From: Collimonas fungivorans
Lineage (GTDB): Bacteria; Pseudomonadota; Gammaproteobacteria; Burkholderiales; Burkholderiaceae_D
NCBI RefSeq assembly: GCF_001584145.1
Contig: NZ_CP013232.1
Span: 3,906,001 to 3,970,000, forward strand
Direction of reading: 5' to 3'
DNA length: 64,000 nt
Shown: positions 1,829-19,185 of the stretch, one piece after another
Position numbering within the stretch: the first letter of the stretch is position 1
Layout of the letters: every line of letters begins with the position of its first letter
Position numbers and translations under genes: made by a program
The notes under the pieces: generated by a model
Told to the model about the DNA's origin: nothing
What the model saw: the letters and a program-made list of their open reading frames with translations, nothing else
Database searches by the model: none

Positions 1829-3367
1829 ATGTCGACCCTTTCTCGTTTTCTATCGATCGCGCTGCTCAGCGGCATGGGCATGGTGGCGGTCCATGCGCAG
1901 AGTGTCCAGCCGCCGCTGAGCGACTCGGAAAAAGCCCTGCACGTACTCAACCGGCTGGCCTATGGACCGCGTCCCGGCGACGTCGATGCAGTCAAGCGCC
2001 TCGGCGTCAAACGCTACATCGAGCAGCAATTGAATCCCGACAGCCTGCCGCTGCCGCCAGACCTGGCAAACAGACTTTCCGCTTTGCCGACTTATCAACT
2101 GACGGCAACCCAGCTTTACCAGCAATACGGTCCGCCCTCTTTCCCTCCCAATAGCGCCACCCCTGAAGAAAAGAACATGGCGCGCCAGCGCGCCAACAAG
2201 GACATCACGCCGCAGACGCATTTTTCCCGGCTGTGGCTGGCTACCGAAAGCCCGCGCCAGCTGCAGGAAGTGATGACCGAATTCTGGTTCAACCACTTCA
2301 ACGTCTTCGAGGGCAAGGAATGGGTGCGCTACTGGAACGGCGAATATGAAAAAGACGTATTGCGGCCCAATGCGCTCGGCAACTTCCGCCAGCTGCTGGG
2401 CGCGGTGGCCCATCATCCGGCGATGCTGTATTACCTCGACAACTGGCTCAGCAGCGGCGCCGGCACACCAGAAGCCAAAGGCCGTTTCAAAGGACTCAAC
2501 GAAAACTACGGCCGTGAACTGCTGGAACTGCACACCATGGGCGTCGACAGCGGCTACACCCAGGCCGACGTGATTTCCCTGGCGCGCATCCTGAGCGGCT
2601 GGACCATCGATGAAAAAGGTATGAAGGACGGCCAGCCGGCGTTCATCTTCAACCCGCGCCGCCATGATGGCGGCGACAAGGTTTTCCTCGGCCAGACCAT
2701 CAAGGGCAGCGGCTACCAGGAAGGCGAACAGGCGCTCGATATCCTGGCGCGCCATCCGGCCACGGCACACTTCGTCGCAGCCAAGCTGGTGCAGTATTTC
2801 GTTTCCGACAAACCCGAACCTGCATTGACCGAAAAACTGGCGCGTCGTTTCCTGAGCAGTAACGGCGACATCAAGGCGGTGCTGCATACGTTGTTCGACA
2901 GCCCCGAATTCTGGGCCCGCAGCAATTACCAGACCCAGTTCAAGACGCCGTACCAATATGTAGTGTCGTCGCTGCGCGCAACCGCGACGCCGGTGCTGAA
3001 TGTACGGCCGATAGACGGCGTGCTCAATCAGCTGGGACAGCCGCTGTACGGTTGGCTGACGCCGGAGGGTTACAAGTTTTCCGAGGAGGCCTGGCTCAAT
3101 CCGGACGCCCTGCTCCGCCGCATCAATTTCGTCAACGGCCTGAGCAACGGCAAATCGCCGATCGCCCGCAGCGATCCGCCGCCGCCCGTGCCGGGAGCAC
3201 CGCCCGTCGCTGCAGCACCGAACACCGCTGCCCCCATCGATCCGCAACAATTGCAGCAGACCCTGGCGCCGGCGCTGACGCCGCACAGCCTGAGCACCAT
3301 CAGCGCCGCACCCGCCAACCTGCAGGTCGGCCTGATACTCGGCAGTCCTGATTTCATGAAGAGATAG
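1829..3367 (+). CDS. DUF1800 family secreted protein
   Basis: A 512-residue protein with an N-terminal signal peptide (SRFLSIALLSGMGMVAVHAQ). It matches the DUF1800 family: HVLNRLAYGPRPGDVD near the start, then TEFWFNHFNVF, GRELLELHTMGVDSGYTQADV and a Pro/Ala-rich stretch (about 440-470) before the C-terminus. The biochemical role of DUF1800 is not established, but it is almost always coded next to a DUF1501 protein, as here (17-base gap). The two probably form a translated pair acting outside the cytoplasm. The start lies close to the signal peptide, and GGCGAAAC just upstream is only a weak ribosome site. Confidence 0.88.
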   Translation: MSTLSRFLSIALLSGMGMVAVHAQSVQPPLSDSEKALHVLNRLAYGPRPGDVDAVKRLGVKRYIEQQLNPDSLPLPPDLANRLSALPTYQLTATQLYQQYGPPSFPPNSATPEEKNMARQRANKDITPQTHFSRLWLATESPRQLQEVMTEFWFNHFNVFEGKEWVRYWNGEYEKDVLRPNALGNFRQLLGAVAHHPAMLYYLDNWLSSGAGTPEAKGRFKGLNENYGRELLELHTMGVDSGYTQADVISLARILSGWTIDEKGMKDGQPAFIFNPRRHDGGDKVFLGQTIKGSGYQEGEQALDILARHPATAHFVAAKLVQYFVSDKPEPALTEKLARRFLSSNGDIKAVLHTLFDSPEFWARSNYQTQFKTPYQYVVSSLRATATPVLNVRPIDGVLNQLGQPLYGWLTPEGYKFSEEAWLNPDALLRRINFVNGLSNGKSPIARSDPPPPVPGAPPVAAAPNTAAPIDPQQLQQTLAPALTPHSLSTISAAPANLQVGLILGSPDFMKR

Positions 3368-3384
3368 TCCATGGGAGCCATGTC

Positions 3385-4725
3385 ATGAAACGTCGTGATT
3401 TCATCCGCCACCTGGGCCTGACCGCCAGCGGCGCCATCCTGATCCCGGTCGGCCTGTCCGGCTGCGTGGTAGCGCCTGCCAGCAAACCGCAGGCCAAGGC
3501 AAAACCCGTCCCGGCTGCGCCTATCGCCATGGTCGACAGCCCGCTGTCGTACGGCAGTCCCTTGCAACGCCCGCACGCAACCGGCGACGGTACGCCGCGC
3601 ATGATCGTGGTGTTCCTGCGCGGCGCGGTGGACGGCTTGAATGTAGTGGTGCCGCACGGCGACCACAATTACTACAAGGCGCGGCCGGGCATTGCCGTAT
3701 CGCGCCCCGGCACCCAGAACGGCGCCATCGACCTGACCGGCTACTTCGGCCTGCATCCGGCACTGCAGGCGCTGCAGCCGTACTGGGACGACGGCCGGCT
3801 GGCGTTCGTGCATGCCTCCGGCTCGCCGGACATGTCGCGCTCGCATTTCGAAGCGCAGGATTACATGGAGACCGGCACGCCGGGCCAGCACAATACCCGC
3901 GACGGCTGGATGAACCGCATGCTCGGCGTGATGCCCTCATCCTCGTCGCCGATGCAAGCCCTGACGCTGGGCGAATCGGTGCCGCGCATCCTGACCGGCC
4001 GGGCGGTGGTCGCCAACATGCCTACCGGCCGCGACGCCACCCGTCCTACCTTGATCGACCGCCCCGAAGTCAGCCAGGCCTATGCCGCGCTGTATGCGGA
4101 AGACGCGGCACTTGGCAAAAGCTATCGCGACGGCATTTCGGCACGCAAGGAACTGATGGCCGACGCCAGCAGCTCGGAACAGAAAATGGCGAATAACGGC
4201 GCGCCGCTGCCGAACGGCCTGTCGATAGACACCGCCCGCCTGGGCCGGCTGATGCGCAGCAACCCTGACATCCGGCTCGGTTTCGTCGCCGTCGGCGGCT
4301 GGGACACCCATACCAACCAGGGCAACGGCAACGGCCAGCTGGCCAACCGCCTGCGGCCTTTGGCCGACGGCCTGACCACGCTGGCGCGCGAACTGGGGCC
4401 GGCATTCAACGATACGGTGATCGTGGTGATGTCGGAATTCGGCCGTACCTTCCGCGAAAATGGCAACGGCGGCACCGACCACGGCCACGGCAACGCCATG
4501 TGGCTGCTGGGCGGCAATGTGCGCGGCCGCACCATCCATGGCTCCTGGCCGGGCATCGACGACAAATCGCTCAACGAAGGGCGCGACCTGGCCATCACCA
4601 CCGACTTCCGTTCGGTGCTGGCGACGCTGGCGGAAAAACACATGCGGATCGGCGATCCGGCCATGCAGAAACTGTTTCCGCAATACGGCGCCGGCAACCC
4701 GCATGCCCTGAACCTGCTGGTGTAA
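3385..4725 (+). CDS. DUF1501 family secreted protein (Tat lipoprotein signal)
   Basis: A 446-residue protein related to the alkaline phosphatase/sulfatase-like DUF1501 family. It starts with a twin-arginine signal (MKRRDFIRHLGL) that ends in a lipobox-like LSGC, so folded export by Tat and lipid anchoring are possible. Family motifs are VFLRGAVDGLNVVVPHGD, GGWDTHTNQG and MSEFGRTFRENGNGGTDHG, with His/Asp residues that could bind metal. It follows the DUF1800 gene closely and ends at a long hairpin facing fmdB. The substrate is unknown. Confidence 0.9.
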   Translation: MKRRDFIRHLGLTASGAILIPVGLSGCVVAPASKPQAKAKPVPAAPIAMVDSPLSYGSPLQRPHATGDGTPRMIVVFLRGAVDGLNVVVPHGDHNYYKARPGIAVSRPGTQNGAIDLTGYFGLHPALQALQPYWDDGRLAFVHASGSPDMSRSHFEAQDYMETGTPGQHNTRDGWMNRMLGVMPSSSSPMQALTLGESVPRILTGRAVVANMPTGRDATRPTLIDRPEVSQAYAALYAEDAALGKSYRDGISARKELMADASSSEQKMANNGAPLPNGLSIDTARLGRLMRSNPDIRLGFVAVGGWDTHTNQGNGNGQLANRLRPLADGLTTLARELGPAFNDTVIVVMSEFGRTFRENGNGGTDHGHGNAMWLLGGNVRGRTIHGSWPGIDDKSLNEGRDLAITTDFRSVLATLAEKHMRIGDPAMQKLFPQYGAGNPHALNLLV

Positions 4726-5130: not shown

Positions 5131-6309
5131 CTAAGGTTTCCTTCCCCAGTACGCGTTATCGTTCAGCATCCCCTTGGGCGTGATGTCCTGGTCGAAAATC
5201 GAGGTCGGCAGGGACACCGTGCAGGCGCAATTCGGAATATCGACGATGCCGCCGATGCGCCCCTCCACCGGCGCCGCGGTCAGCAGCATGTAGGCCTGGC
5301 TGCCGGTATACCCGAAGTGGGTCAGGTAATCGATGGCTTTCAGGCAGGCCTGGCGGTAGGCCACGGTGGCGTCCAGGTAATAGTTGACGCCGTTCTCGAC
5401 GCTGATGCCTTCGAAGGTCAGCCACTGCTCGTAGTGCGGCTTGACGATGCTGGGCATGAAGATCGGCGAGCTGATGTTGTATTTCGCCATGCCGCCCTTG
5501 ATCAGGTCGAAACCGACGTGGCTGACGCCATCCATTTCAATCGCGCCGCAAAAGCCGATTTCGCCGTCGCCCTGGGAAAAATGCAGGTCCCCCATGGAAA
5601 AGCCCGCGCCCTTCACATACACCGGGAAAAAGATCCGGGTGCCGGCGGACAAGTCCTTGATATCGGTATTGCCGCCATGTTCGCGCGGCGGCACGGTGCG
5701 CGCCGCTTCCTTCGCCATGCTGTCGAACTTGGCGCCGCTGAGGCCGCGCAGCACGGCGGTGCTCGGATCAGGCGGCTTGGCCAAGCCCTTGGCCGCCAGC
5801 GGCGCCTCGCGCCGGTTCCATTCCGCCAGCAAATCGTGCGACGGCAGGCAGCCCATCAGGCCCGGATGGGTCAGGCCGGCGATGCGTACGCCGGGAATAT
5901 GGCGCGAAGTGGCGTACAAACCTTTCAAGTCCCAGATCGCCTTGTCGGCGTCAGGAAAAGTATCGGCCAGGAAGCCGCCGCCGTTCTCTTTCGAAAATAC
6001 GCCGGAAAAACCGACCGGCGTCACCGGCTTGATGTCGAGCAGGTCGATCACCAGCAGGTCGCCCGGTTCCGCGCCTTCGACATGGAACGGCCCGGTCAGC
6101 GGATGGGCGCGGGTCAGGTCGACGTTCCTGACGTCGGAAACGTCGTCGTTGTCCTGGATCTGCGCATCCAGGAAATCCAGCGATTCGATCAGGATCGCCT
6201 CGCCCGGCTTGACCGAGGACAGGAACGGCAGGTCGGGATGCCAGCGGTTATGTCCCAGCTCGGCTTGCTGCGCCAGCGGCACGCCCGGTTTGATCTTGAA
6301 ATGTTGCAT
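5131..6309 (-). CDS. fmdA: Formamidase
   Basis: A 392-residue member of the FmdA/AmdA acetamidase-formamidase family, which hydrolyses formamide to formate and ammonia in the cytoplasm. The start MQHFKIKPGVPLAQQ is preceded by AGGAGAG seven bases upstream. A longer frame begins at TTG 6333 but has no ribosome site. Family features include HPLTGPFHVEGAEPGDLLVIDL, RTVPPREHGGNTDIKDL (active-site/metal region), FSMGDLHFSQGDGEIGFCGAIE and the near-terminal DIPNCACTVSLP. It lies between amiE and fmdB in the amide operon, so it would handle formamide, while AmiE handles longer aliphatic amides. Confidence 0.93.
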   Translation of the reverse strand: MQHFKIKPGVPLAQQAELGHNRWHPDLPFLSSVKPGEAILIESLDFLDAQIQDNDDVSDVRNVDLTRAHPLTGPFHVEGAEPGDLLVIDLLDIKPVTPVGFSGVFSKENGGGFLADTFPDADKAIWDLKGLYATSRHIPGVRIAGLTHPGLMGCLPSHDLLAEWNRREAPLAAKGLAKPPDPSTAVLRGLSGAKFDSMAKEAARTVPPREHGGNTDIKDLSAGTRIFFPVYVKGAGFSMGDLHFSQGDGEIGFCGAIEMDGVSHVGFDLIKGGMAKYNISSPIFMPSIVKPHYEQWLTFEGISVENGVNYYLDATVAYRQACLKAIDYLTHFGYTGSQAYMLLTAAPVEGRIGGIVDIPNCACTVSLPTSIFDQDITPKGMLNDNAYWGRKP

Positions 6310-6343
6310 GCGACTCTCCTCTTGGTGGCTCAATCAGGGTGGT

Positions 6344-7366
6344 TCATTCGGAAGGAATGCCAGGCATCGGGCATTCCGGCGTGCCGGCCGTGCCGCGGGT
6401 CAGCGCCTCGACCTGGCGCCGCGCCTGCTGCGGATCGTTGACCCAGGTCTTGTAAAAATCGAAGGGGCAGTCGGCGACGCCGGCCGCACTTTCGCCGGAA
6501 TTGATCTTGCCGGTGTAGCCGCGGTGCAGCAGCTTGTAGAGATGGTTCTGCGATTGCCAGTTGCGGCGCGCGTCGCGAATCAGGCCGAGCGACAGTTCGG
6601 CGTACTGGATGCCCATTTCCTCGGTGCCGCATTCGCCCAGGGTACGGCCGTCGAAGCCGACGATGGCCGAGTGGCCGAAATAGGAATACACGCCGTCGAA
6701 GCCGCTGGCGTTGGCCACCGCCACATAGACATTGTTCATCCACGCCATCGCCTTCGACACCAGCACCTGCTGCTCCTTGGCCGGATACATGTAACCCTGG
6801 CAACGCACGATCAGCTCGGCGCCTTTCATCGCGCAGTCGCGCCAGATTTCGGGATAGTTGCCGTCGTCGCAGATGATCAGGCTGATCTTCAGGCCTTTCG
6901 GGCCGTCGGAAACATAAGTGGTCTCGCCCGGATACCAGCCTTCGATCGGTGTCCACGGCATGATCTTGCGGTACTTCTGGACAATCTCGCCCTGGTTGTT
7001 CATCAGGATCAGGGTGTTGTACGGCACCTTGTGCGGATGTTCCTCATGCCGTTCGCCGGTCAGCGAAAACACGCCCCAGACATTGGCCTGGCGGCAGGCC
7101 TCGGCGAAAATCGCGGTTTCCTCGCCGGGGATGGCAGCGGCGGTATCGAACATTTCCTCGCGGTCGTACATGATGCCGTGGGTCGAGTATTCCGGGAAAA
7201 TCACCAGGTCCAGTCCCGGCAGCCCCTGTTTCATGCCTACCACCATCGCCGCGATATTGCGGACGTTTGCCAATACCTCAGACTTGTTATGCAGGCGCGG
7301 CATCTTGTAGTTCACGACTGCGACCCCGACGCCATCCTTGCTGCTGGATATATCTCCGTGCCTCAT
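6344..7366 (-). CDS. amiE: Aliphatic amidase
   Basis: A 340-residue nitrilase-superfamily enzyme that hydrolyses short aliphatic amides (acetamide, propionamide) to the acid and ammonia. The Glu-Lys-Cys catalytic triad is in place at the family positions: E59 (FPEYSTHG), K134 (KYRKIMPW) and C166 (ICDDGNYPE). Length and N-terminus MRHGDISSS match AmiE closely. It follows urtE in the same operon (41-base gap) and precedes fmdA. In Pseudomonas, amiE is controlled by AmiC/AmiR. Neither is present here, which leaves the divergent two-component system as the candidate regulator. Confidence 0.95.
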
Positions 7367-7407: not shown

Positions 7408-8097
7408 CTAGACCGACAAATAACGGCTGATGGTTGCGGCGTCGACCTTGTCGCTCGTGTCCTCGTAGACAAAACGGCCCTTGTCGATCACCAGGAAGCG
7501 GTCGGCGATTTCCAGCGTGAAGCTGAGCACCTGCTCCGAGACGATGATGGTCAACTGGCGCAGCTTGCGGATTTCTTTCAGGCTGCGCGCAATGTCCTTG
7601 ATGATCGACGGCTGGATGCCTTCGGTCGGCTCGTCCAGCAGCAGTACCTTGGGATTGGTGGCCAGCGCGCGCGCAATCGCCAGCTGCTGTTGCTGGCCGC
7701 CGGACAGGTTGCCGCCTTTGCGGCCGCGCATTTCGTGCAGCACCGGGAACAAGGCGTACAGCTCATCCGGCACCTTGCCGAGCGCGCTCGCCGGCAAGCC
7801 GGTCTGGATGTTTTCCAGCACCGTCATGCCGGGGAAAATCATGCGCCCCTGCGGCACATAAGCGACGCCGCTGGCGACCCGCTGATAGCTCTCCAGGTGG
7901 CCCAGCTCCTGGCCGTCGATCTGGATGCTGCCTTCGCGCAGCGGCAGGATTCCCATCAGGGTCTTGAACAAGGTGGTTTTTCCCATGCCGTTGCGGCCCA
8001 TGACGGCGACGATTTCCTGTTTGCCGACTGCCAGGCTGACATCGTGGATGACCTGGCTCTGGCCATAGCCGGAGGCAAGATGCGAGACATTGAACAT
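7408..8097 (-). CDS. urtE: Urea/short-chain amide ABC transporter ATP-binding protein UrtE
   Basis: A 229-residue LivF-type ATPase. Walker [10 protein letters not shown], signature [15 protein letters not shown] and Walker [17 protein letters not shown] are intact; EGIQPSII is typical of UrtE. The start is [12 protein letters not shown] at 8097 with GGAGC eight bases upstream. The frame extends to 8136, but the extra 13 residues lack a ribosome site. It is the second ATPase of the importer, following urtD, and is followed by amiE. Cargo is inferred from the neighbouring amidases. Confidence 0.9.
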
Positions 8098-8113
8098 AAG
8101 TGCTCCGAATGGT

Positions 8114-8881
8114 TTAGTGGCCGAGATAGACTTCAATCACCTTGGGATTGGCCTGCACCGATTCCATGCTGCCTTCGGCCAGTATTTTTCCCTGGTGTAG
8201 TACGGTGACCTTGTGGGCGATGCTCTTGACGAATTCCATGTCATGTTCAATCACCAGCACCGAACGGCCCTTGCTGATGCGTCCCAGCAGCTCGGCGGTT
8301 TTCTCGCGTTCCGAGACGCTCATGCCGGCCACCGGCTCGTCCAGCATCAGCAGTTCCGGCTCCTGCATCAGCAGCATGCCGATTTCCAGCCACTGCTTCT
8401 GTCCGTGCGACAGCAGGTCGGCCTGCTGGTACAGCTGGGCGTCAAGGAAGATTTCCCTGGCCACCGCTTCGACCCGTTCCACCACTTCCGCCGTGCGCTT
8501 GAACACCAGTGCGCCGAATACCTTGCGGCCACGCGGAAACGACATCTCCAGGTTCTCGAACACGCTCAGGTTTTCGTAGATGGACGGCGTCTGGAACTTG
8601 CGGCCGACCCCGGCCTGGACGATTTCGTGCTCGCGCATCTTGGTCAGTTCGCGGTTCTTGAACTGGATGCTGCCGGCGGTGGCTTGCGTCTTGCCGCAGA
8701 TCAGGTCCAGCACGGTGGTCTTGCCGGCGCCGTTGGGACCGATCACCACCCGCACCTCATTGCGCTCGACGTAGAAATTCAAGCCGTCCACCGCCTTGAA
8801 ACCGTCGAAAGACACCGTCAGGTCTTCAATCGCCAGCACCGGCCGGTCGCTTGATTCGAAACCGATAGGATTTCCGCTCAT
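8114..8881 (-). CDS. urtD: Urea/short-chain amide ABC transporter ATP-binding protein UrtD
   Basis: A 255-residue LivG-type ATPase with Walker A GPNGAGKTTVLDLI, signature LSHGQKQWLEIGMLL and Walker B LLMLDEPVAGMSVSE. The LSHGQKQWLEI form is characteristic of UrtD. The start MSGNPIGFESS at 8881 has GGAGG eight bases upstream and overlaps the urtC stop by four bases (ATGA), implying coupled translation. A longer frame to 8992 is only read-through into urtC. Confidence 0.9.
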   Translation of the reverse strand: MSGNPIGFESSDRPVLAIEDLTVSFDGFKAVDGLNFYVERNEVRVVIGPNGAGKTTVLDLICGKTQATAGSIQFKNRELTKMREHEIVQAGVGRKFQTPSIYENLSVFENLEMSFPRGRKVFGALVFKRTAEVVERVEAVAREIFLDAQLYQQADLLSHGQKQWLEIGMLLMQEPELLMLDEPVAGMSVSEREKTAELLGRISKGRSVLVIEHDMEFVKSIAHKVTVLHQGKILAEGSMESVQANPKVIEVYLGH

Positions 8882-10077
8882 TTCGATCCCTCCAGGCTGC
8901 CGTGCGGCAGTTCGATAGTCACGTCGGCGAGCGCCGGTTGCGGCTTGGCGACGGCCGGCGGTGCGAGGCTGATGACCCGGCGGCGCTTCCACCCGCTCAG
9001 TTTCGACAACAAAAGCTTACCGTGGCTCTGGTACAGTCCGGCCAGGCCGTTCGGGAAATACATCACCACCGCAATGAACAGGCCGCCCATCAGGAACAGC
9101 CACAGTTCAGGAAACGATTCGGAAAAATAGGTCTTGCCGAAATTCACCAGCAAGGTGCCGTAGACCGCGCCGAGCAAGGACATGCGGCCGCCCACCGCGG
9201 CATAGATCACCATCTCGATGGAAGGCACGATGCCGACAAACGATGGCGACATGAAGCCAACCTGCAAGGTGAACATGGCGCCGCCGATAGCGGAAAACAT
9301 GGCGGCAACGCAGAACACGAACACCTTGAAGCTGGCGACGTCGTAGCCGGAAAACCGCACCCGCTCCTCCTTGTCGCGCATCGCCACCAGCAGGCGTCCC
9401 AGCTTCGAGTTCAGGATAAAACGCCCGATCAGGATGCAGCCGATCAGCAGGCCGGCGTTGACGAAATACAGGACCAGCTTGGCCGAATCGGTGCGGATGT
9501 CCCAACCCATCAGGGTTTTCAGGTCGGTGATGCCGTTGACGCCGCCGGTCAGTCCTTGCTGGCCGATGATCAGGATCGCCAGGATGGCGGCAATCGCCTG
9601 GGTGACGATAGAGAAATACACATCGCCGACGCGGCGCTTGAACATCGCCGCGCCGATCACCAGCGCCATCAAGGTCGGTACCAGCAGCACCGCCAGCAAG
9701 GTAAAGCCGAAGGAGTGGAACGGCTGCCACAGCAGCGGCAACTCGGTGATCTGGTTCCAGTCCATGAAATCGGGAATGCCCGGGGTCGACTGGATCTTGG
9801 TGCTGATTGGATCGGATGCTTCCAGCTTGAGGAACATCGCCATGCAATAACCGCCCACGCCGAAGAACACGCCCTGCCCCAGGCTGAGGATGCCGCCGTA
9901 ACCCCAGCACAGCACCAGGCCAACGGCGACAAAGGCATAGGCCAGGTATTTGCCGACCAGGTTCAGGCGGAAAATATCGAAGACCAGGGGAAACACCACC
10001 AGCAGCAGTCCGCACAGGATCAGCAAGCCGATCAGGCCCGACCTTCCGCCCAACAATTTTTCATATGCTGCATTCAT
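8878..10077 (-). CDS. urtC: Urea/short-chain amide ABC transporter permease UrtC
   Basis: A 399-residue LivM-family inner-membrane permease with about ten hydrophobic segments. Family stretches include CWGYGGILSLGQGVFFGVGGY near residue 60 and AMRDKEERVRFSGYDVASFKVFVF, the EAA-type coupling loop to the ATPase. The C-terminal 40 residues are basic and Pro/Ala-rich and lie past the last helix. It follows urtB after 23 bases. Together with UrtB it forms the translocation pore. Confidence 0.9.
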   Translation of the reverse strand: MNAAYEKLLGGRSGLIGLLILCGLLLVVFPLVFDIFRLNLVGKYLAYAFVAVGLVLCWGYGGILSLGQGVFFGVGGYCMAMFLKLEASDPISTKIQSTPGIPDFMDWNQITELPLLWQPFHSFGFTLLAVLLVPTLMALVIGAAMFKRRVGDVYFSIVTQAIAAILAILIIGQQGLTGGVNGITDLKTLMGWDIRTDSAKLVLYFVNAGLLIGCILIGRFILNSKLGRLLVAMRDKEERVRFSGYDVASFKVFVFCVAAMFSAIGGAMFTLQVGFMSPSFVGIVPSIEMVIYAAVGGRMSLLGAVYGTLLVNFGKTYFSESFPELWLFLMGGLFIAVVMYFPNGLAGLYQSHGKLLLSKLSGWKRRRVISLAPPAVAKPQPALADVTIELPHGSLEGSK

Positions 10078-10100: not shown

Positions 10101-11018
10101 TTATTTACGGATCTTGGCCGCGAACAGCCCTTGCGGCCGCAGCAGCAAAATCAGGATCACTGCTGATAGCGTCAGCACCTTGGCCATCGATCCGGTCAGG
10201 AAGAACTCGGCGGTGGACTGGGTCTGGGCGATGGAGAAAGCCGAAGCGATCGTGCCCAGCAGGCTTTGCGCGCCGCCGAACACCACCACCAGGAAGGTGT
10301 CGACGATATACAGCGAACCGCTGGTCGGCCCGGTCGAACCGATGGTGGTGAACGCTGCCCCGGCGATGCCGGCGACCCCGCATCCGAGAGCAAAGGTGCT
10401 GCGGTCGACCTTGCGGGTATTGATGCCGACCGCGCCGCTCATCAGGCGGTTCTGCATGGTGGCGCGCACCTGCAAACCCCAGCGCGAACGGAACAGCAGC
10501 AGGAAGATGACGCCGGTCAGCACCGCCGTCAGCGCCATCATGAATACGCCGTTGATGGGAATGTCTATGCTGTCGGTCGGCTTGAACGAACCCATCAGCC
10601 AGTCCGGCAGGGTGGCGCTGACTTCCTTGGCGCCGAAGATGGAGCGAAACGTTTGCTGCATGGCCAGGCTCAGGCCCCAGGTCGCCAGCAAGGTGTCCAG
10701 CGGCCGCTTGTACAGGCGGCTGATCATCAGCCACTCGGTGACATAGCCGACGATGTAGGCGGTCACGAAAGACAGCGCAATCGCGGCAAAGAAATAATAG
10801 GGCTGCAGGCTGGGCGCATACAGCGTAGTCAGCTTGGACAACAGATAAGTAATGTAGGCGCCGATGGTGAGGAACTCGCCATGCGCCATGTTGATCACGC
10901 CCATCTGGCCGAAGATGATGGCCAGGCCAAGCGCCATCAGCAGCAGGACGCAGAATACCGACAGGCCGTTGAAGCCCTGCATGGCGAAAATGGCGCCGAA
11001 TTCGGAAAGTGAGACCAC
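10101..11018 (-). CDS. urtB: Urea/short-chain amide ABC transporter permease UrtB
   Basis: A 305-residue LivH-family permease. Motifs include FGQMGVINMAHGEFLTIGAY, LATWGLSLAMQQTFRSIFGAKE and MSGAVGINTRKVDRSTFALGCGVAGIAG. I choose GTG 11018 (MVSLSEFGAIFAMQG), which has GGAG seven bases upstream; the frame can begin at TTG 11033, but that start overlaps this ribosome site. It lies 99 bases after urtA. Many UrtB proteins carry a long N-terminal extension that is absent here, as in the Methylophilus-type amide transporters. Confidence 0.88.
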   Translation of the reverse strand: MVSLSEFGAIFAMQGFNGLSVFCVLLLMALGLAIIFGQMGVINMAHGEFLTIGAYITYLLSKLTTLYAPSLQPYYFFAAIALSFVTAYIVGYVTEWLMISRLYKRPLDTLLATWGLSLAMQQTFRSIFGAKEVSATLPDWLMGSFKPTDSIDIPINGVFMMALTAVLTGVIFLLLFRSRWGLQVRATMQNRLMSGAVGINTRKVDRSTFALGCGVAGIAGAAFTTIGSTGPTSGSLYIVDTFLVVVFGGAQSLLGTIASAFSIAQTQSTAEFFLTGSMAKVLTLSAVILILLLRPQGLFAAKIRK

Positions 11019-11117
11019 GGTGGCTCCTTGCAATGTTGCGGCTGGCGTCAGGCGGCCCGATGGCGACGCTGCGCCCCCGGGCCGCCGGACCGCCGGACCG
11101 TTAAGACAATGGAAAAC

Positions 11118-12371
11118 TTACTGGTAGCCCTTGGGGAAAGGATTCGGCTCGATCAGGTCGGATTCATAGATGACCTTGAACTGGCCGTCTTTCTGCGCCT
11201 CGCCAATGCGGGTCTTGCTCCACAGGTGATGATTGGGGTGAACCTTGACGTAGCCTTCCGGCGCGCTCTTCAATTCGAATCCGGGCGATGCCGCCACCAC
11301 CTTGTCGACATCGAAACTGCCGGCCTTCTCGACCGCGGCCTTCCACAGCCATGGCCCCAGGTAAGCTGCCTGGGTAACGTCGCCGATGACCGCATTGGGG
11401 CCGAACTTGGCCTTGAATTCGGCCACGAATTTCTTGTTGTTCGGATTGTCCAGGCTCTGGAAATATTTCATCGACGAATAGAAACCTTCGACGTTTTCCC
11501 CGCCTATGCCCAGCATTTCATCTTCCGTGACCGAGATCGTCAGCAGGTTCTGGGTCTTGGCGGTGACGCCGGCAGCCTTGAGCTGCTTGTAGAAGGCGAC
11601 GTTGCTGCCGCCCACCACGTCGGCGAAAATCACGTCCGGCTTTTTCAGCTTGATCTTGTTGATCAGCGAGCCGAACTGGGTATTGCCCAGCGGGTAGTAC
11701 TCTTCGCCGACCACCGAGCCTTTCAAGACATTCTCGATGTGCTTGCGGGCGATCTTGTTGGAAGTGCGCGGCCAGATGTAGTCGGAGCCGACCAGGAAAA
11801 AGGTCTTGGCTTTCTTTTCCTTGGCGACCCAGTTCAGGCCGGCCAGCACCTGCTGCGTGGCTTCCTGTCCGGTGTAGAAGACATTCTTGGATTGTTCCAG
11901 GCCCTCATAGAAGGTCGGGTAATACAGCAGGCCGTTGTCTTTCTCGAACACCGGCAGCACCGCCTTGCGCGAAGCCGAAGTCCAGCAGCCGAACACGGCG
12001 GCGACGTGATCGCTCTCCAGCAGCTTCTTGGCCTTTTCGGCGAAGGTCGGCCAGTCGCTGGCGCCGTCTTCCTGGATGATCTTGATCTTGCGCCCGAGGA
12101 TGCCGCCCATGGCATTGATCTGGTCGATCGCCAGCCGTTCGGCCTGGATCGAGCCGGTTTCGCTGATCGCCATGGTGCCGGTGGCCGAGTGCAGCTGGCC
12201 GACGGTGACTTCGGTATCGGTAACCGCCAGCTTGGTGGTGTTGATCTTGGCCGTGGCCGGCGACTGGGCGAAGCCGATGGCCGGCAAAGCCAGCGCGGCG
12301 CTGGCGGCCAGGCCCAGCAATACCTTGCGGCGCTGGAACGAGGGCTTATCGGATGCAGAACGATGCGACAT
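11118..12371 (-). CDS. urtA: Urea/short-chain amide ABC transporter substrate-binding protein UrtA
   Basis: A 417-residue periplasmic binding protein of the UrtA/AmiC/FmdD group. A long signal peptide (RRKVLLGLAASAALALPAIGFAQ) has an RR pair and may use Tat. Core motifs are VGQLHSATGTMAISE, VFGCWTSASRKAVLPVFE, LLYYPTFYEGLEQS and VGSDYIWPRTSNKI, all typical of urea/amide receptors. AAGGAG stands eight bases before the ATG. It is the first gene of the minus-strand operon, reading away from the kinase gene. No urease is present in the window but two amidases follow, so short amides are the likelier ligands. This last point is inference. Confidence 0.92.
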   Translation of the reverse strand: MSHRSASDKPSFQRRKVLLGLAASAALALPAIGFAQSPATAKINTTKLAVTDTEVTVGQLHSATGTMAISETGSIQAERLAIDQINAMGGILGRKIKIIQEDGASDWPTFAEKAKKLLESDHVAAVFGCWTSASRKAVLPVFEKDNGLLYYPTFYEGLEQSKNVFYTGQEATQQVLAGLNWVAKEKKAKTFFLVGSDYIWPRTSNKIARKHIENVLKGSVVGEEYYPLGNTQFGSLINKIKLKKPDVIFADVVGGSNVAFYKQLKAAGVTAKTQNLLTISVTEDEMLGIGGENVEGFYSSMKYFQSLDNPNNKKFVAEFKAKFGPNAVIGDVTQAAYLGPWLWKAAVEKAGSFDVDKVVAASPGFELKSAPEGYVKVHPNHHLWSKTRIGEAQKDGQFKVIYESDLIEPNPFPKGYQ

Positions 12372-12512: not shown

Positions 12513-12528
12513 TACGTTGTTTGACGTA
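12513..12528. promoter_or_regulatory. TACGT-N6-ACGTA operator-like palindrome 1
   Basis: TACGT (12513-12517), six bases, ACGTA (12524-12528). It is centred about 150 bp upstream of the urtA start. The same arms and spacing recur at 12697-12712. This is a plausible binding site for a dimeric LuxR-type regulator such as the one coded at 16218. Confidence 0.6.
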
Positions 12529-12696: not shown

Positions 12697-12712
12697 TACG
12701 TCAAATGACGTA
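12697..12712. promoter_or_regulatory. TACGT-N6-ACGTA operator-like palindrome 2
   Basis: TACGT (12697-12701), CAAATG, ACGTA (12708-12712). The symmetry extends to an 18-bp palindrome at 12696-12713 with two central bases unpaired. It is centred about 94 bp upstream of the GTG start of the permease-kinase gene and 184 bp from site 1. Confidence 0.62.
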
Positions 12713-12798: not shown

Positions 12799-15700
12799 GT
12801 GAAGATTACCGCCACCCAACGCATCGTCAAGGTCCGCCGCGACTACAACACCTGGGTCGGCAACGAGACGCTGGAAGACTACGCCCTGCGCTTTACGCCG
12901 CGCTCGTTCCGCAAATGGTCGGAATTCCGCCTGGCCAACACCGCGCTCGGCGCCATCTCTTTCCTGGCGCTGGAAGCCATCAGCGGCACCATCACGCTCA
13001 ACTACGGCTTCAGCAATGCATTCTGGGCAATTGTCTGCGTCAGCATCCTGTTCTTCCTGACCGGGCTGCCGATCAGCTACTACGCAGCCAAATACGGCGT
13101 CGACATGGACCTGCTGACGCGCGGCGCCGGCTTCGGCTACATCGGCTCGACCATCACCTCGCTGATCTACGCCACCTTCACCTTCATCTTTTTTGCAGTG
13201 GAAGCGTCGATCATGGCGCAGGCGATCGAACTCTACTTCGGCCTGCCGCTGGTGCTCGGCTACATCATCTGCGCCCTGGTGGTGATTCCGCTGGTGACCT
13301 ACGGCATCACGCTGATCAACCGCCTGCAGATGTGGACCCAGCCGCTGTGGCTGGTGCTGCTGGTGCTGCCGTATGTCTGCGTGCTGCACAAGGAACCGGA
13401 TGCGCTGGCCAACCTGATGACCTTCGCCGGCCGCGCCGAAAACGGCAACAGCTTCGACCTGGTGCTGTTCGGCTCCGCCGCCACCGTTGCCTTTTCATTA
13501 ATCGCACAGATCGGCGAGCAAGTCGACTTCCTCCGTTTCCTGCCTGAAAAGACCGCTGCCAACCGCTACCGTTGGTGGAGCGCATTGCTGCTGGCGGGAC
13601 CGGGCTGGATCTTGCTGGGCGCGGCAAAGATGCTCGGCGGGGCCCTGCTGGCGTTCCTGGCGATCCAACACGAGGTGCCGATCGGCAAGGCGGTCGAGCC
13701 GACCCAGATGTACCTGATCGCCTATCGTTACGTGTTCTCCGATCCGGCCTGGGTGCTGGCGGCGGTCACCTTGCTTGTGGTGGTGTCGCAGATCAAGATC
13801 AATGTCACCAACGCCTATGCCGGTTCGCTGGCCTGGTCGAATTTCTTCGCGCGCCTGACGCACAGCCACCCGGGCCGTGTGGTGTGGCTGGTGTTCAATG
13901 TGCTGATCGCCTTGCTGCTGATGGAAATCGGCGTCTTCAACGCGCTGGAGCATGTGCTGGCCTTGTACGCGCTGGTGGCGATTTCCTGGATCGGCGCGGT
14001 GGTCTCGGACCTGGTCATCAACAAGCCGCTGGGCCTGAGTCCGCCGCATATCGAGTTCAAGCGCGCCCACCTGTACGACATCAATCCGGTCGGCGTCGGC
14101 GCCATGCTGATTGCCTCGGCGCTGTCGGCGCTGGCCTTGTCCGGCATGTTCGGCGGCGTGGCGCGGGCGCTAGCGCCCTTCATCGCGCTCGGCAGCGCGC
14201 TGCTGATCGCACCGGTGATCGCTTACGCGACCAAGGGAAAATACTATATCGCCCGCCACGACCAGCTGGCCGACAGCCACCATGGCCAGCTGGAATGCGT
14301 CATCTGCGGCAACCATTTCGAGACGCCTGACATGGCGCACTGCCCGGCTTACCAGGGCGCGATCTGTTCGCTGTGCTGCTCGCTCGATGCACGCTGTAAC
14401 GACCGCTGCAAGGAAGCGTCGCGCATGCCGGACCAGATATTCAATACCTTGCGCGGTTTCCTGCCCGAACGTTTCACGCTCAAGCTCAATACTCGCATCG
14501 GCCACTACCTGATCGTGTTCAGCCTGGTGTCGGGCGGACTGGCGGTGGTGCTGTGGCTGCTGTATTACCAGCAGCTGGCGGGCATGTCTGGCCTGGCCGG
14601 CGGCGGTCCGGATTCGATGGCGGGAATTTTCATCAAGCTGTTCGCCTCGCTGCTGGTGTTCATCGGCGTCGGCTCATGGTGGCTGGTGCTGACCAATGAA
14701 AGCCGCAGCGTCGCTCACGAGGAATCGGAACGGCAGACCAACCTGCTGCTGCAGGAAATCGACGCCCACAACCAGACCGACGCCGCCCTGCAACGCGCCA
14801 AGGAAGCGGCAGAAGCGGCCAACCTGGCGAAGAGCCGTTTTGTCACCGGCATGAGCCATGAACTGCGCACGCCGCTCAATAGCATCCTCGGCTACGCCCA
14901 GATCCTGCAGGTCGACCACGCCATCCCGGAAGGCCGCAGGGACGCCATCGGCGTCATCCGCCGCAGCGGCGAACATCTGCTGAGCCTGATCGACGGCTTG
15001 CTGGATATCGCCAAGATCGAAGCCGGCAAGATGCGGCTGGCGGCGGACGAACTGCCGCTGCACGAATTCCTCGACCAGATCGTGCAGATGTTTGCGCCGC
15101 AAGCCGAGCAAAAGGGCCTGGCGTTCCGCTTTGAAAAGGTAGGCCGTATCCCGGAGGTGGTCCAGGTCGACCAGAAACGGCTGCGCCAGATACTCATCAA
15201 CCTGCTAGGCAATGCAGTCAAGTTTACCGACGCCGGCCATGTCACGCTGCGGGTCCGCCATGCCCGCGAGATCACTTATTTCGAAGTCGAGGACAGCGGC
15301 ATCGGCATCGCCGAAGAAGACATCGCCCGGGTGTTCCTGCCGTTCGAACGCAGCAACGCCGCCAACCTGCGCGAAGACATCGGCACCGGGCTCGGCCTGG
15401 CCATCAGCAGCATGCTGACCCACATCATGGGCGGCGCGCTGTCGGTCGCCAGCAACATCGGCAAGGGCAGCACTTTCCAGCTCAAGATCTACCTGTCGGA
15501 GGTACGCGCGCCGCGCCGCCGCATCAAGCTGGAAGACCAGATGTCGGGTTATCTCGGTCCCAGGAAACGGATACTGGTGGTGGACGACCAGGCCTCGCAG
15601 CGCGCCGTGCTGAGCGCCATGCTGGCGCCGCTCGGATTCGACATCAGCGAGGTCGCGAGCGGCGCCGCCTGCCTGGCGGAAATCGCCCGCGCCATGCCGG

Positions 15701-16221
15701 ACCTGGTGCTGCTCGACATCGCCATGCCAGCCATGGACGGCGGCGCCGTGTGCCGCGCGATACGCTCCCAGGGCCATGCCAGCCTGCCGATCATCATCGT
15801 CTCCGCCAACGCGTTCGAGAGCACGCCGCAGCAGATCGATCCGCTCAGCTATAACGATTTTGTGGTCAAGCCGGTGTCTTTCAACGACCTGCTGTCGAAG
15901 ATCCGGCTGCACCTGAAAGTCGACTGGATTTCCGATCCGGCGCCGCCGGCCGCCGCCGGCGCCGCAGCAGGCAGCGCCATCCTGGTGATCCCGGCGCGGG
16001 AAAAACTGCAGGCGCTGCTGGAGCTGGGGGCGATCGGCTACATCAAGGGCATCGTCGGCAAGCTCGATGAAATAGAACAGCAGGACCCGGTCTACCAGCC
16101 GTTCACCCGCGAGCTGCGCGAACTGGTGAAACGTTTTCGCCTGAACGACTACAGCGCGCGCCTGCAGGCGTTGCTGTACCAGGCCGGCGAGCAGCCTGCG
16201 CAACGCGTCGACAGCGCATGA
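12799..16221 (+). CDS. NCS1-permease/hybrid histidine kinase fusion
   Basis: A 1140-residue membrane sensor. Residues about 30-490 form a complete-looking NCS1 (nucleobase-cation symporter 1) permease with some twelve hydrophobic segments. Residues 500-537 form a cysteine cluster (C500, C503, C515, C523, C526, C527, C533, C537) that could bind zinc or iron-sulfur. Two more membrane helices follow (about 570-640), then HisKA with H687 (SHELRTP), a HATPase domain (N805, D832, GTGLGLAI about 862) and a receiver with D973 (LLDIAMPAMDG). The last 90 residues are helical; I see no HPt motif. The start is GTG with a weak AAGGT upstream. It overlaps the response regulator gene by four bases. It probably senses a small nitrogen compound and controls the divergent amide operon. 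Confidence 0.85.
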   Translation: MKITATQRIVKVRRDYNTWVGNETLEDYALRFTPRSFRKWSEFRLANTALGAISFLALEAISGTITLNYGFSNAFWAIVCVSILFFLTGLPISYYAAKYGVDMDLLTRGAGFGYIGSTITSLIYATFTFIFFAVEASIMAQAIELYFGLPLVLGYIICALVVIPLVTYGITLINRLQMWTQPLWLVLLVLPYVCVLHKEPDALANLMTFAGRAENGNSFDLVLFGSAATVAFSLIAQIGEQVDFLRFLPEKTAANRYRWWSALLLAGPGWILLGAAKMLGGALLAFLAIQHEVPIGKAVEPTQMYLIAYRYVFSDPAWVLAAVTLLVVVSQIKINVTNAYAGSLAWSNFFARLTHSHPGRVVWLVFNVLIALLLMEIGVFNALEHVLALYALVAISWIGAVVSDLVINKPLGLSPPHIEFKRAHLYDINPVGVGAMLIASALSALALSGMFGGVARALAPFIALGSALLIAPVIAYATKGKYYIARHDQLADSHHGQLECVICGNHFETPDMAHCPAYQGAICSLCCSLDARCNDRCKEASRMPDQIFNTLRGFLPERFTLKLNTRIGHYLIVFSLVSGGLAVVLWLLYYQQLAGMSGLAGGGPDSMAGIFIKLFASLLVFIGVGSWWLVLTNESRSVAHEESERQTNLLLQEIDAHNQTDAALQRAKEAAEAANLAKSRFVTGMSHELRTPLNSILGYAQILQVDHAIPEGRRDAIGVIRRSGEHLLSLIDGLLDIAKIEAGKMRLAADELPLHEFLDQIVQMFAPQAEQKGLAFRFEKVGRIPEVVQVDQKRLRQILINLLGNAVKFTDAGHVTLRVRHAREITYFEVEDSGIGIAEEDIARVFLPFERSNAANLREDIGTGLGLAISSMLTHIMGGALSVASNIGKGSTFQLKIYLSEVRAPRRRIKLEDQMSGYLGPRKRILVVDDQASQRAVLSAMLAPLGFDISEVASGAACLAEIARAMPDLVLLDIAMPAMDGGAVCRAIRSQGHASLPIIIVSANAFESTPQQIDPLSYNDFVVKPVSFNDLLSKIRLHLKVDWISDPAPPAAAGAAAGSAILVIPAREKLQALLELGAIGYIKGIVGKLDEIEQQDPVYQPFTRELRELVKRFRLNDYSARLQALLYQAGEQPAQRVDSA

Positions 16222-17207
16222 CAAGGACTATCTTGGACGACCATCTCACTCTCTCCGCCGATCCGCCGCCAAGGCCGCTAGCCAGCCGCCCGGTGGTGCT
16301 GATCGTGGACGACATGCCGGACAACCTGGCGCTGCTGTCGGATGCGCTGGACGAGAGCGGCCATATCGTGCTGGTCGCGACCGACGGCGCCAGCGCCATC
16401 CAGCGGCTGGGCTACATCACGCCCGACCTGATCCTGCTGGATGCCGTCATGCCGGGGCTGGACGGCTTTGAAACCTGCCGCCGCATCAAGCTGCTGGCCA
16501 GCGCCGCCCACGTGCCGGTAGTGTTCATGACCGGCCTCACCGAGACCGAGCATGTGGTGCGCGGCTTCCAGGTCGGCGGCATAGACTATGTCACCAAGCC
16601 GATCCAGCCGCTGGAAATCGTCGCCCGCGTCGCCGCCCATATCAAGACGGCGCGCATGATGTCGCAGGCCAGGGATGTAATCGACGCCGCGGCCCATGCC
16701 GTGATCGTGCTCGGCATCGATGGCGCGCCTTTATGGCAAACCGGCAAGGCCTCGTTCTGGCTGGAAAAATACTTCCCGCGCAGCGACCAGCGCAAGCTGC
16801 CGCCGCAGCTGCAGTTCTGGCTGAATGAAAACCTGGTGTTGCTGCGGCAGACGCAGCAGCCGCTGCAGCCGCTGGTGATCAGCGGCGATGACGGCGAACT
16901 GACCATCAATCTTTCCAAAAACACCCAGAGCGCCGAGCTGACTCTGCTGCTGGAAGAAAAATCCCTGGTGTTGCCGAATGCGGTCCAGCTTGAAGATTAT
17001 CGGCTGACGCCGCGCGAAACCGATGTCCTGGCCTGGGTCTCCAAAGGCAAGACCAACCGCGACATCGCCGAGATTCTTGGCATGAGCCCGCGCACGGTGA
17101 ACAAGCACCTGGAACACATCTATATCAAGCTGGGTGTGGAGACGCGCGCCGCCGCCGCGGCGCTGGCGATCAGCCGCCAGTATGGCACGCCTGCCACCCT
17201 GCAGTAA
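16218..17207 (+). CDS. Response regulator with LuxR-type HTH
   Basis: A 329-residue regulator. The N-terminal receiver (VVLIVDDMPDN, phospho-acceptor D75 in LLDAVMPGLDG, VTKP lysine) is followed by a middle region of about 110 residues that I cannot assign (possibly PAS-like: AVIVLGIDGAPLWQT). It ends with a LuxR/FixJ helix-turn-helix (LTPRETDVLAWVSKGKTNRDIAEILGMS region, SPRTVNKHLEHIYIKLGV). The ATGA overlap with the kinase marks it as the cognate partner. The LuxR domain suits the palindromes between urtA and the kinase gene. Confidence 0.88.
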   Translation: MTRTILDDHLTLSADPPPRPLASRPVVLIVDDMPDNLALLSDALDESGHIVLVATDGASAIQRLGYITPDLILLDAVMPGLDGFETCRRIKLLASAAHVPVVFMTGLTETEHVVRGFQVGGIDYVTKPIQPLEIVARVAAHIKTARMMSQARDVIDAAAHAVIVLGIDGAPLWQTGKASFWLEKYFPRSDQRKLPPQLQFWLNENLVLLRQTQQPLQPLVISGDDGELTINLSKNTQSAELTLLLEEKSLVLPNAVQLEDYRLTPRETDVLAWVSKGKTNRDIAEILGMSPRTVNKHLEHIYIKLGVETRAAAAALAISRQYGTPATLQ

Positions 17208-17221
17208 CGGTGGCGGTGTCG

Positions 17222-18043
17222 CTAGCGGACCAACGCCTTGATTTCGGCCAGCTGACGCCGGGAAATCGGCAGGCGGTGATCGCAATGATCGATATCGCGC
17301 AAGATGACTTGCCAGATTTCCTGCGGTTTTTCGCCATCGCCCTCGCTGTCCTTGTCCGCTGCCTGCATGACACGTTCGACGCCGCTGATGGCGTTGCGCG
17401 CCACCAGCGCATTGCGATGCACGCGCACAAAGTGGAGCGCCAGTTCTTCTTCAATCGAGACCAGCGAATCTTCGATCAGGTATTCCTTGGTCCTGGTGCG
17501 CAAGGTGACGTATTTCAGTTCCGCCTTCAGGTACAGCACTTCGGCCATCGGCACCAGCGACATGCGGCCGCGCTCCTGCACCGCGAAATGCTGGCGCGGC
17601 AGAGCGCTGACGGCGACCGCTCCGGGGCCGGTTGCCGAAGCTGCCTGCGCTTGCTGGCGCATGCGGCTGGCGCGGCCGATGGCTTGCGCCAGCCGGGTGG
17701 CGCGCACCGGCTTGACCAGGTAGTCGAAAGCCTGGACATCGAAAGCGCTCAGCGCATAGTCGTCGTAGGCAGTCACGAAAATGATCAGGGGCGGTTCGGC
17801 CAGGCCGCTATTGGCGTTGGCCAGCAGCTGCTCGGCCAGCTGCAAGCCGCTCATGCCAGGCATCTGCACATCCAGCAAGACCAGGTCTGGCGCGGTGGCG
17901 CGAATGCCTTCCAGCGCCGCCTGCGCATGGCCGGCTTCGCCCACCAGGTAGTGCGGGCATTCGGCCACGATGTCGGACAGCAGCGTACTCAGCCTGGCGC
18001 GCGCCGGCGCTTCATCGTCAACGATATAGATGCGAGGGATCAT
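17222..18043 (-). CDS. algR: LytTR-family response regulator, AlgR-like
   Basis: A 273-residue regulator. The receiver has IYIVDDEAPARARL, phospho-acceptor D in LLDVQMPGMSG, TAYDDYALSAFDV and YLVKPV. The LytTR DNA-binding domain spans about 165-270 (FAVQERGRMSLVPMAEVLYLKAELKYV, ALHFVRVHRNALVARN). AlgR-type proteins control pili, exopolysaccharide or virulence genes in relatives. It follows the broken kinase gene by 24 bases on the same strand, and argH lies beyond, the same algZ-algR/argH neighbourhood known from Pseudomonas. The Asp- and Glu-rich insert before the C-terminus (ADKDSEGDGEKPQE) is unusual. Confidence 0.85.
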   Translation of the reverse strand: MIPRIYIVDDEAPARARLSTLLSDIVAECPHYLVGEAGHAQAALEGIRATAPDLVLLDVQMPGMSGLQLAEQLLANANSGLAEPPLIIFVTAYDDYALSAFDVQAFDYLVKPVRATRLAQAIGRASRMRQQAQAASATGPGAVAVSALPRQHFAVQERGRMSLVPMAEVLYLKAELKYVTLRTRTKEYLIEDSLVSIEEELALHFVRVHRNALVARNAISGVERVMQAADKDSEGDGEKPQEIWQVILRDIDHCDHRLPISRRQLAEIKALVR

Positions 18044-18067
18044 GAAATAAGATGTTTGTTGTCGGTT

Positions 18068-19185
18068 TTATCTGCTTCCCTGCGGCTTGGCCAGGGCCGC
18101 CTCGACTTTGCTTTTTACATAGGGAAAACTGGCGCGCACTTCGAACTGGCCGAGGCTGGTGGCGGTGGTCAGTTGTCCTTCGACATCGTACAGCAGCGCC
18201 AGCCGTTCGCGGATATTTTCCAGCGCCATCTGGTTACCTTCCGGCAGCGCCGCAACGCCCTTGCCGCTATACGGATTGTAAGGATTGGTGATGACGATTT
18301 CAATCCGTTCCAGCGTATGGCTTAACTGGATACGGATCAGGGCCGGTTCGGTGCTCGGTTCGACGCCATAATGGACGGCGTTTTCTATCAAAGGCTGCAG
18401 CAGCAAGGTGGGAATCTGCGCCCGGAAAATCACCTCGTCGCTGATGCCAGCCCGCTCCCATTGCACTTTCAGGCGTTCGCCCAGGCGGATTTTTTCTATC
18501 GACAGGTATTGCCGGCACAGGCGGATTTCCTTTTCCAGCGTAGTCATGGCGCGGCCGTCGCGCATCAGGACCCGGATCAGGTCGGCCAGGTCTTCCAGCG
18601 CCGCCTCGGCCCGGCGTGGTTCGTTCCGGATCAGCGACAGCACCGCGTTCAGGCTGTTGAACAGGAAATGCGGCCGGATCCGCGCCTGCAAGGCTTGCAG
18701 GCGGGCTTCCACCAGCACCGGCGAAAAAGCCCGGCGCGCAATTCGAAATAGTGCTGTAGTGCGCCGCCGAACAGCGCCGCCGCCAAGGCCGCCAGCGGCA
18801 TGCCGCCGCGTGCGCCGAGGTGGGAAAATCCGCTGAGGAACCAGTCGAAACCGGACAGCAGCCGGATCACCGCCATCGTCACCAGGGCTGGCACCAGCAG
18901 ACACGACAGCCGCTGGATAAATAGAGGCAAACGGTAAGCGACCCGATGCAGGCCGCACAAGGCAACCAGCGACAGGAAACAGGCGGGTTCGATCAGCATC
19001 GCCGATTCGACAAAGCTGTTGAGTGCAGCCAGCAGGCCGTCGCTATGCAGCAGGAGCGCCGCCATGATCGTCAGGTTGACCGCAATCAATGTCCGGAATA
19101 CCACGCCCAGGTTGCAGCCGTCGGGAATCACCACCGTGTTCGGCTGTTGCGCTGGGACGTTGTCTGCGATCTGGTCGGATGCCAT
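18068..19185 (-). pseudogene. algZ: AlgZ/LytS-like sensor kinase, split by a one-base frameshift
   Basis: Two overlapping frames together make one sensor kinase. The first (from ATG 19185, MASDQIADNVPAQQ) codes about five membrane helices and ends GGALQHYFELRAG. The second resumes at AFSPVLVEARLQALQ and carries the His-kinase core: RIRPHFLFNSLNAVLS (phospho-His) and PTLLLQPLIENAVHYGVEP (N box), then the ATPase end. Adding one G after plus-strand 18733-18734 restores an uninterrupted protein of about 372 residues. The downstream frame has no plausible independent start. It is either a real inactivation or an assembly error. The regulator gene next door is intact. Confidence 0.8.

Follow-up and report, generated by a model that had tools for sequence, protein, structure and literature searches.

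The closest described counterparts of the system considered here are the SLC5/STAC kinases CbrA, CrbS (MxtR) and RpuS, which resemble the Collimonas kinase in joining a LeuT-fold transporter to a kinase and in being tied to nutrient import or use. For CbrA, a structure of the SLC5-STAC portion and transport of histidine are reported (PMC13022988). The SLC5 kinase CrbS has a LuxR-type regulator, CrbR, which is reported to act through an inverted repeat (PMC5715377). In Ks-Amt5, too, a histidine kinase is joined to a transporter that has been recruited for sensing; it is reported to bind but not to translocate, signalling without transporting (PMC5764959). An amide/urea uptake cluster is reported to be induced by its own substrates (PMC10781810). 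No transporter-kinase is named as the sensor of such induction in the open-access literature searched, nor was a description of an NCS1-kinase fusion found there, a scope outside which subscription journals mostly fall.

The window, a 64,000-nucleotide stretch of Collimonas fungivorans DNA analysed as a whole, encodes a fusion of this general kind, followed by a response regulator gene:

12799..16221, + strand: NCS1-like transporter/hybrid histidine kinase, 1140 aa
12868..14238, + strand: predicted NCS1-like permease fold, residues 24-480
14296..14409, + strand: eight-cysteine module, residues 500-537, kept in 120/120 aligned rows
14494..14913, + strand: helix 566-596 and unbroken helix 604-705, from structure models
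14827..15027, + strand: HisKA with phospho-acceptor H687, domain match
15169..15492, + strand: HATPase_c, domain match
15571..15906, + strand: receiver domain with D973, domain match
16218..17207, + strand: response regulator, REC plus LuxR-type HTH, overlapping the kinase gene by 4 bp

A sequence-only reading of this DNA had taken the permease, the cysteine cluster, two extra helices and a hybrid kinase with receiver to be one protein. This is confirmed, and a frameshift or assembly join of separate permease and kinase genes is rejected by a homologue search with residues 1-660 and by a sample of 398 genomes. The claimed overlap with the LuxR-type regulator gene also holds, at 4 bp. HisKA, HATPase_c and a receiver lie within a single chain, which makes the protein a hybrid histidine kinase; neither HAMP nor PAS was matched in it by Pfam. 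In the family alignment, the H687 position is His in 117/120 rows and a gap in 3, and the D973 position is Asp in 115/120 and a gap in 5. According to the predicted model, the last membrane helix, within helix 604-705, extends uninterrupted into the DHp domain and the kinase. A helical tail lies 3' of the receiver (15919-16218, residues 1041-1140); it does not resemble an HPt match, and a Pfam search up to E=10 gives nothing for it. Directly after the LuxR-type regulator gene, a convergent gene pair (17222-18958, - strand) encodes a LytTR-type response regulator and a His_kinase protein, presumably LytS-type. This pair occurs in 2/80 related loci (best 80 of at least 589), both from Collimonas.

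A fold search with the full-length model returned kinase-type entries alone in the top 50, and the sensor half was therefore modelled separately. It is predicted to adopt a 12-helix LeuT-type fold nearest to CodB and Mhp1, the search figure being 30.9 for CodB and 21.6 for the best listed SLC5 structure. At the level of sequence families, the window protein has no match to the Pfam NCS1 model PF02133 up to E=1, and none of 38 family members matches it, whereas a standalone relative with 27% identity passes (36.4 bits against a cut-off of 23.5). The NCBIfam cytosine permease model NF008241 gives 25.5 bits (E 5.1e-6), below its cut-off of 326, and matches below E=1 in 21/38 members (best 2.6e-10). 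A profile of the 38 permease parts found no match among PDB sequences up to E=1, and the standalone permease of locus L152 found one, which is unrelated. The term NCS1 thus holds for the modelled fold of the sensor half, in a family that lies outside the Pfam NCS1 model. The earlier description as an NCS1 nucleobase-type permease stands as to fold; it does not stand as to PF02133 membership, and part of the nucleobase-gripping site is lost.

CodB stacks the base between Trp108 and Phe204, with Gln105 forming a bond to it, and both aromatic residues are described as conserved through NCS1 (PMC9379551). Equivalent positions in the family were assigned with MAFFT and hhalign, which agree on TM3 and TM6, the hhalign alignment being weak (probability 34%). 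Gln105 corresponds to Thr128 and Ala207 to Gln237, each in 120/120 rows; Trp108 corresponds to Phe131 (Phe in 109 rows, Leu in 11) and Phe204 to Leu234 (Leu in 119/120, Met in 1/120). The aromatic pair is therefore not retained across the 120-row alignment, and a check of the transport-site residues, which the earlier reading had called for, finds the CodB-type nucleobase-gripping residues partly lost. Five residues lining the pocket on TM3 and TM6 (T128, E135, Q237, E240 and Q241) are invariant in 120/120. Because the room for ring stacking is reduced and hydrogen-bonding groups are increased, the pocket, as judged from the alignment, would be better suited to urea or a short amide than to a nucleobase, and the label "nucleobase-type" probably misleads about the ligand. 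The NCS1 fold can accept non-ring substrates: metformin is reported to be taken by MetT (PMC13390362). The placement of TM8 differs by at least one residue between the two alignments, which bears on the Na2 sodium site formed by TM1 and TM8. Positions that differ between amide-linked and urea-linked members can be listed, with phylogeny as a confounder.

Between permease and kinase, eight cysteines are present in all 120 aligned sequences, while the other five are kept in 8-54%. Their spacing is C-x2-C-x11-C-x7-C-x2-CC-x5-C-x3-C in 115/120 rows; of the remaining five, one has a longer spacer and four fall outside the search expression, which required CP at the third cysteine. A Pfam search up to E=10 found no family for the module, and only two chance matches (E 8.9 and 9.8) were found among PDB sequences. 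Its model consists of short strands and a short helix and resembles a small metal-binding domain, in which the metal would be zinc. In the predicted models, residues 480-565, including the Cys cluster, form short strands, loops and short helices, and the STAC four-helix bundle is absent.

The kinase gene had been read as divergent from an amide importer/amidase operon, and this is borne out, with a 427-bp gap between urtA and the kinase. The operon comprises:

11118..12371, - strand: UrtA-type binding protein, amide-type (TIGR03407, 534.4 bits against a cut-off of 492.75)
10101..11033, - strand: UrtB permease (TIGR03409)
8878..10077, - strand: UrtC permease (TIGR03408)
8114..8992, - strand: UrtD ATPase (TIGR03411), start codon possibly further in
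7408..8136, - strand: UrtE ATPase (TIGR03410)
6344..7366, - strand: carbon-nitrogen hydrolase, amidase type (PF00795)
5131..6333, - strand: FmdA acetamidase/formamidase (PF03069)

UrtA-E all score above their NCBIfam cut-offs. This operon has no urease linkage and continues into the amidase and FmdA; a second UrtA, 45% identical, adjoins urease elsewhere in the same genome. There, about 80 kb off (locus L154, C1:3828000-3847900), a separate urtABCDE-urease cluster lacks an NCS1-like kinase. Beyond the amide operon lies a DUF1800-DUF1501 gene pair (1829-4725, + strand); DUF1501 occurs in 1/80 related loci (best 80 of at least 589).

Homologues of residues 1-660 number at least 7,999. Among the matches listed are Pseudomonas, Stutzerimonas, Leptolyngbya and Spirulina, many of them as incomplete or metagenomic entries, and also Psychromonas and Colwellia. 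Of 398 genomes sampled evenly across the phylum, 65 have a match at E 1e-3 or better, 52 of them below 1e-150; the weaker ones are mostly short matches to ordinary permease-sized frames. The expectation that related fusions may exist in Burkholderiales was right as to their existence and too narrow as to their range.

Synteny was assessed in 119 family loci, made up of the best 80 of at least 589 and 40 regions hand-picked for spread from the 398-genome matches, minus L152; the loci are mutually related and partly chosen for closeness. The distant standalone permease (L152) and the urease locus of the genome itself (L154) belong only to the wider 121-locus set. Flanks of up to 10 kb were covered in most cases, genes were classed as amide-type from 60% identity to UrtA, B or C of the window upwards, and urease reference proteins were found through greedy gene calls and confirmed by Pfam. 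A zinc-ribbon gene (Pfam Zn_ribbon_8) is taken to be FmdB. In 118/119 loci, urt, fmdA or urease genes flank the kinase. Amide-type urt genes occur with fmdA in 75, without fmdA in 13, with urease-type genes in addition in 4 and inside a urease cluster in 2; fmdA without urt occurs in 2. In other lineages, the neighbours of the same module are genes for the true urea importer and for urease: 8 loci combine urea-type urt and urease genes, 6 have urea-type urt alone and 7 have urease genes but no urt (one locus, L076, was scored as urease-bearing from a UreG-type match alone). Neither kind is found in 2 loci, one with urtD/E-like genes at the margin (L083) and one that consists of a contig of 4.8 kb (L140). 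Two proteins of about 885 aa (L121, L122) combine the NCS1-like domain and the Cys module with a diverged kinase that has no receiver match, and lie beside fmdA without urt. Another protein (P0204) joins this sensor half to a GGDEF domain in place of the kinase, so that in some organism the output of the sensor may be c-di-GMP signalling.

The association also holds when approached from the importer. UrtA with at least 70% identity was found at 39 places in 38 of the 398 genomes, and all 38 encode the kinase. At 36 of these 39 places, the kinase is divergent within 1 kb (179-777 bp, distance and orientation checked); the exceptions are explained by a different contig (G111), an intervening urease cluster (G360) and a second copy (G028). 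One place at 60% identity (G379) stands outside this count. Some UrtA is present in 51/52 kinase genomes and in 117/346 genomes without the kinase, so that urea-type importers often work without it. On a tree of 120 sensor halves, built by a quick method with a midpoint root and with some long branches meeting, the amide/urea label has to change 6 times, with well-supported branches accounting for at least 4 of these, and within this sample the changes are always between these two operon kinds. Three genomes (G158, G225, G246) carry one kinase copy in each setting. The closest standalone permease found, that of L152, adjoins a carbon-nitrogen hydrolase and a UrtA-type protein.

Both copies of a candidate operator fall in the gap between urtA and the kinase:

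12697..12712, no strand: putative operator, perfect palindrome TACGTCAAATGACGTA
12513..12528, no strand: second putative operator copy, 2 mismatches

Genome-wide, the former is the only perfect site, and of the three sites that have 2 mismatches or fewer, two are this pair. A further site in the window, with 3 mismatches, lies at 17497-17512, outside the kinase/amide system. Across 119 upstream slices, a count that includes the window and its Collimonas kin, 14/14 positions match in 41 and at least 12/14 in 81, while shuffles, which preserve base content only, reach 12 in 0.17%; two loci whose contigs begin at the gene (L100, L107) were sliced at the wrong place and scored as misses. The 121 loci (2.36 Mb) hold 126 copies of at least 12/14, of which 124 precede the kinase, urtA, fmdA, amidase or urtC by no more than 500 bp (21 before fmdA alone), as measured to BLAST match edges rather than start codons; one draw of a Markov simulation of 119 loci gave zero copies. 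At least one copy occurs in 80/92 amide-type loci against 5/27 other family loci (L099, L111, L137, L143, L151), and the last three have the palindrome at a distance of 117-178 bp to a urea-type urtA. Not all loci have the operator: no palindrome of at least 12/14 is found in 12/92 amide-type and 22/27 other loci; L152 and L154 have no site either. The palindrome would be the binding site of the LuxR-type regulator encoded beside the kinase. A sigma-54 promoter toward urtA was also considered and dropped, the consensus scan finding one in 7/70 loci and none in the window gap.

Architecture, fold, synteny, the conserved palindrome and the pocket changes are computed features, and coupling to an amide/urea operon, as first proposed, is strongly supported by family-wide synteny and the conserved operator-like palindrome. 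We consider it somewhat better than even that the kinase derives its sensor from a transporter and serves as a receptor for urea or short-chain amides, a reading based on the synteny (118/119), the divergent UrtA (36/39), the palindrome, the pocket, the label changes on the tree and the context of L152. Such a kinase would probably act as a switch signalling the presence of a urea or small-amide nitrogen source. Counted against it are the palindrome-less loci, the kinship of the loci, the non-acceptance as NCS1 by Pfam, the presence of some UrtA in 117/346 genomes that lack the kinase and the reported dependence of Pseudomonas stutzeri urea genes on NtrC (PMC8443478).

For the ligand, membrane side, sign of control and phosphotransfer route, we infer the following course. 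Urea, formamide or a similar small amide would bind in the NCS1-like domain, at its altered central pocket. The resulting motion would travel by way of the eight-Cys module in the cytosol and the last membrane helix, continuous with the kinase, changing phosphorylation of H687. From there, phosphate would reach the LuxR-type regulator that the overlapping gene encodes, directly or via D973 and a separate HPt protein. The regulator would bind TACGTCA-NN-TGACGTA in the divergent promoter and switch urtABCDE, the amidase, fmdA and its own operon. The NCS1-like kinase may thereby be the sensor that delivers substrate induction of amide/urea uptake clusters.

The invariance of the eight cysteines would also suit a kinase that reads nitrogen status, ammonium or metal/redox state via the Cys module, with the NCS1-like domain only an anchor or ion-gradient sensor, and the Methylophilus cluster is reported to be subject to repression by high ammonia as well (PMC10781810). 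However, the TM3/TM6 pocket residues T128, E135, Q237, E240 and Q241 are equally invariant, and an anchor would not need them; we regard this explanation as unlikely. The NCS1-like domain could instead respond to the ABC importer, or to the binding protein once loaded, as flux or complex, rather than to free ligand. We hold this to be more doubtful still: the divergent position within 1 kb of 36/39 amide-type urtA genes speaks for it, yet 7/119 loci have urease without urt and 2/119 fmdA without urt in the flank, a weak objection in that urt may lie elsewhere in the genome. Least probable in our estimate is a nucleobase, hydantoin or allantoin-type ligand. It would agree with what the nearest folds, CodB and Mhp1, transport, but Phe204 is replaced by Leu (119/120) and Gln105 by Thr (120/120), against aromatics reported as conserved through NCS1 (PMC9379551), and the flanks, in a search that covered those gene kinds, carry urea and amide genes.

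Beyond the receptor for urea or short-chain amides itself, it is possible, and offered tentatively at rather less than even confidence, that these proteins form a further, widespread class of transporter-receptor kinases. Here, the NCS1 fold would be a dedicated urea/amide receptor in which binding is kept, the nucleobase site is lost and transport is perhaps lost as in Ks-Amt5, with the unclassified eight-Cys metal module as a coupling piece or a second redox/metal input. If true, this would supply the missing inducer-sensing system of short-chain amide/urea operons across Proteobacteria, and perhaps cyanobacteria. The family also provides a further LeuT-fold class, next to SLC5/STAC, in which to study how transporter movement is turned into kinase signalling, its small Cys module standing where those kinases have STAC. 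Because the family is large, tied to operons and provided with a candidate operator, the question of the amide/urea sensor becomes testable.

Among described proteins, a genome table for Dechloromonas aromatica lists a 1131-aa histidine kinase and a 308-aa receiver gene beside urtA and urease, an entry that in the accessible part carries no remark on a permease domain (PMC2907700); its size and place, compared by description only, suggest a family member. GrtK of Burkholderia glumae was rejected as the same system, being described as a 427-aa protein with a PilS-like domain (PMC12918730). CodB and Mhp1 share the fold of the Collimonas sensor half, but the Collimonas protein alone is fused to a kinase, lies outside PF02133 and has an altered substrate site. 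Ks-Amt5 differs in its Amt fold, and in the accessible part of its description a Cys module is not reported and a receiver is absent from the layout (PMC5764959). Unlike the SLC5/STAC kinases, the Collimonas protein has an NCS1-like rather than an SLC5 fold and a predicted urea/amide ligand, and where those kinases have STAC, it has the eight-Cys module and an additional pair of membrane helices. Fusions of a transporter with a kinase are in themselves already known.
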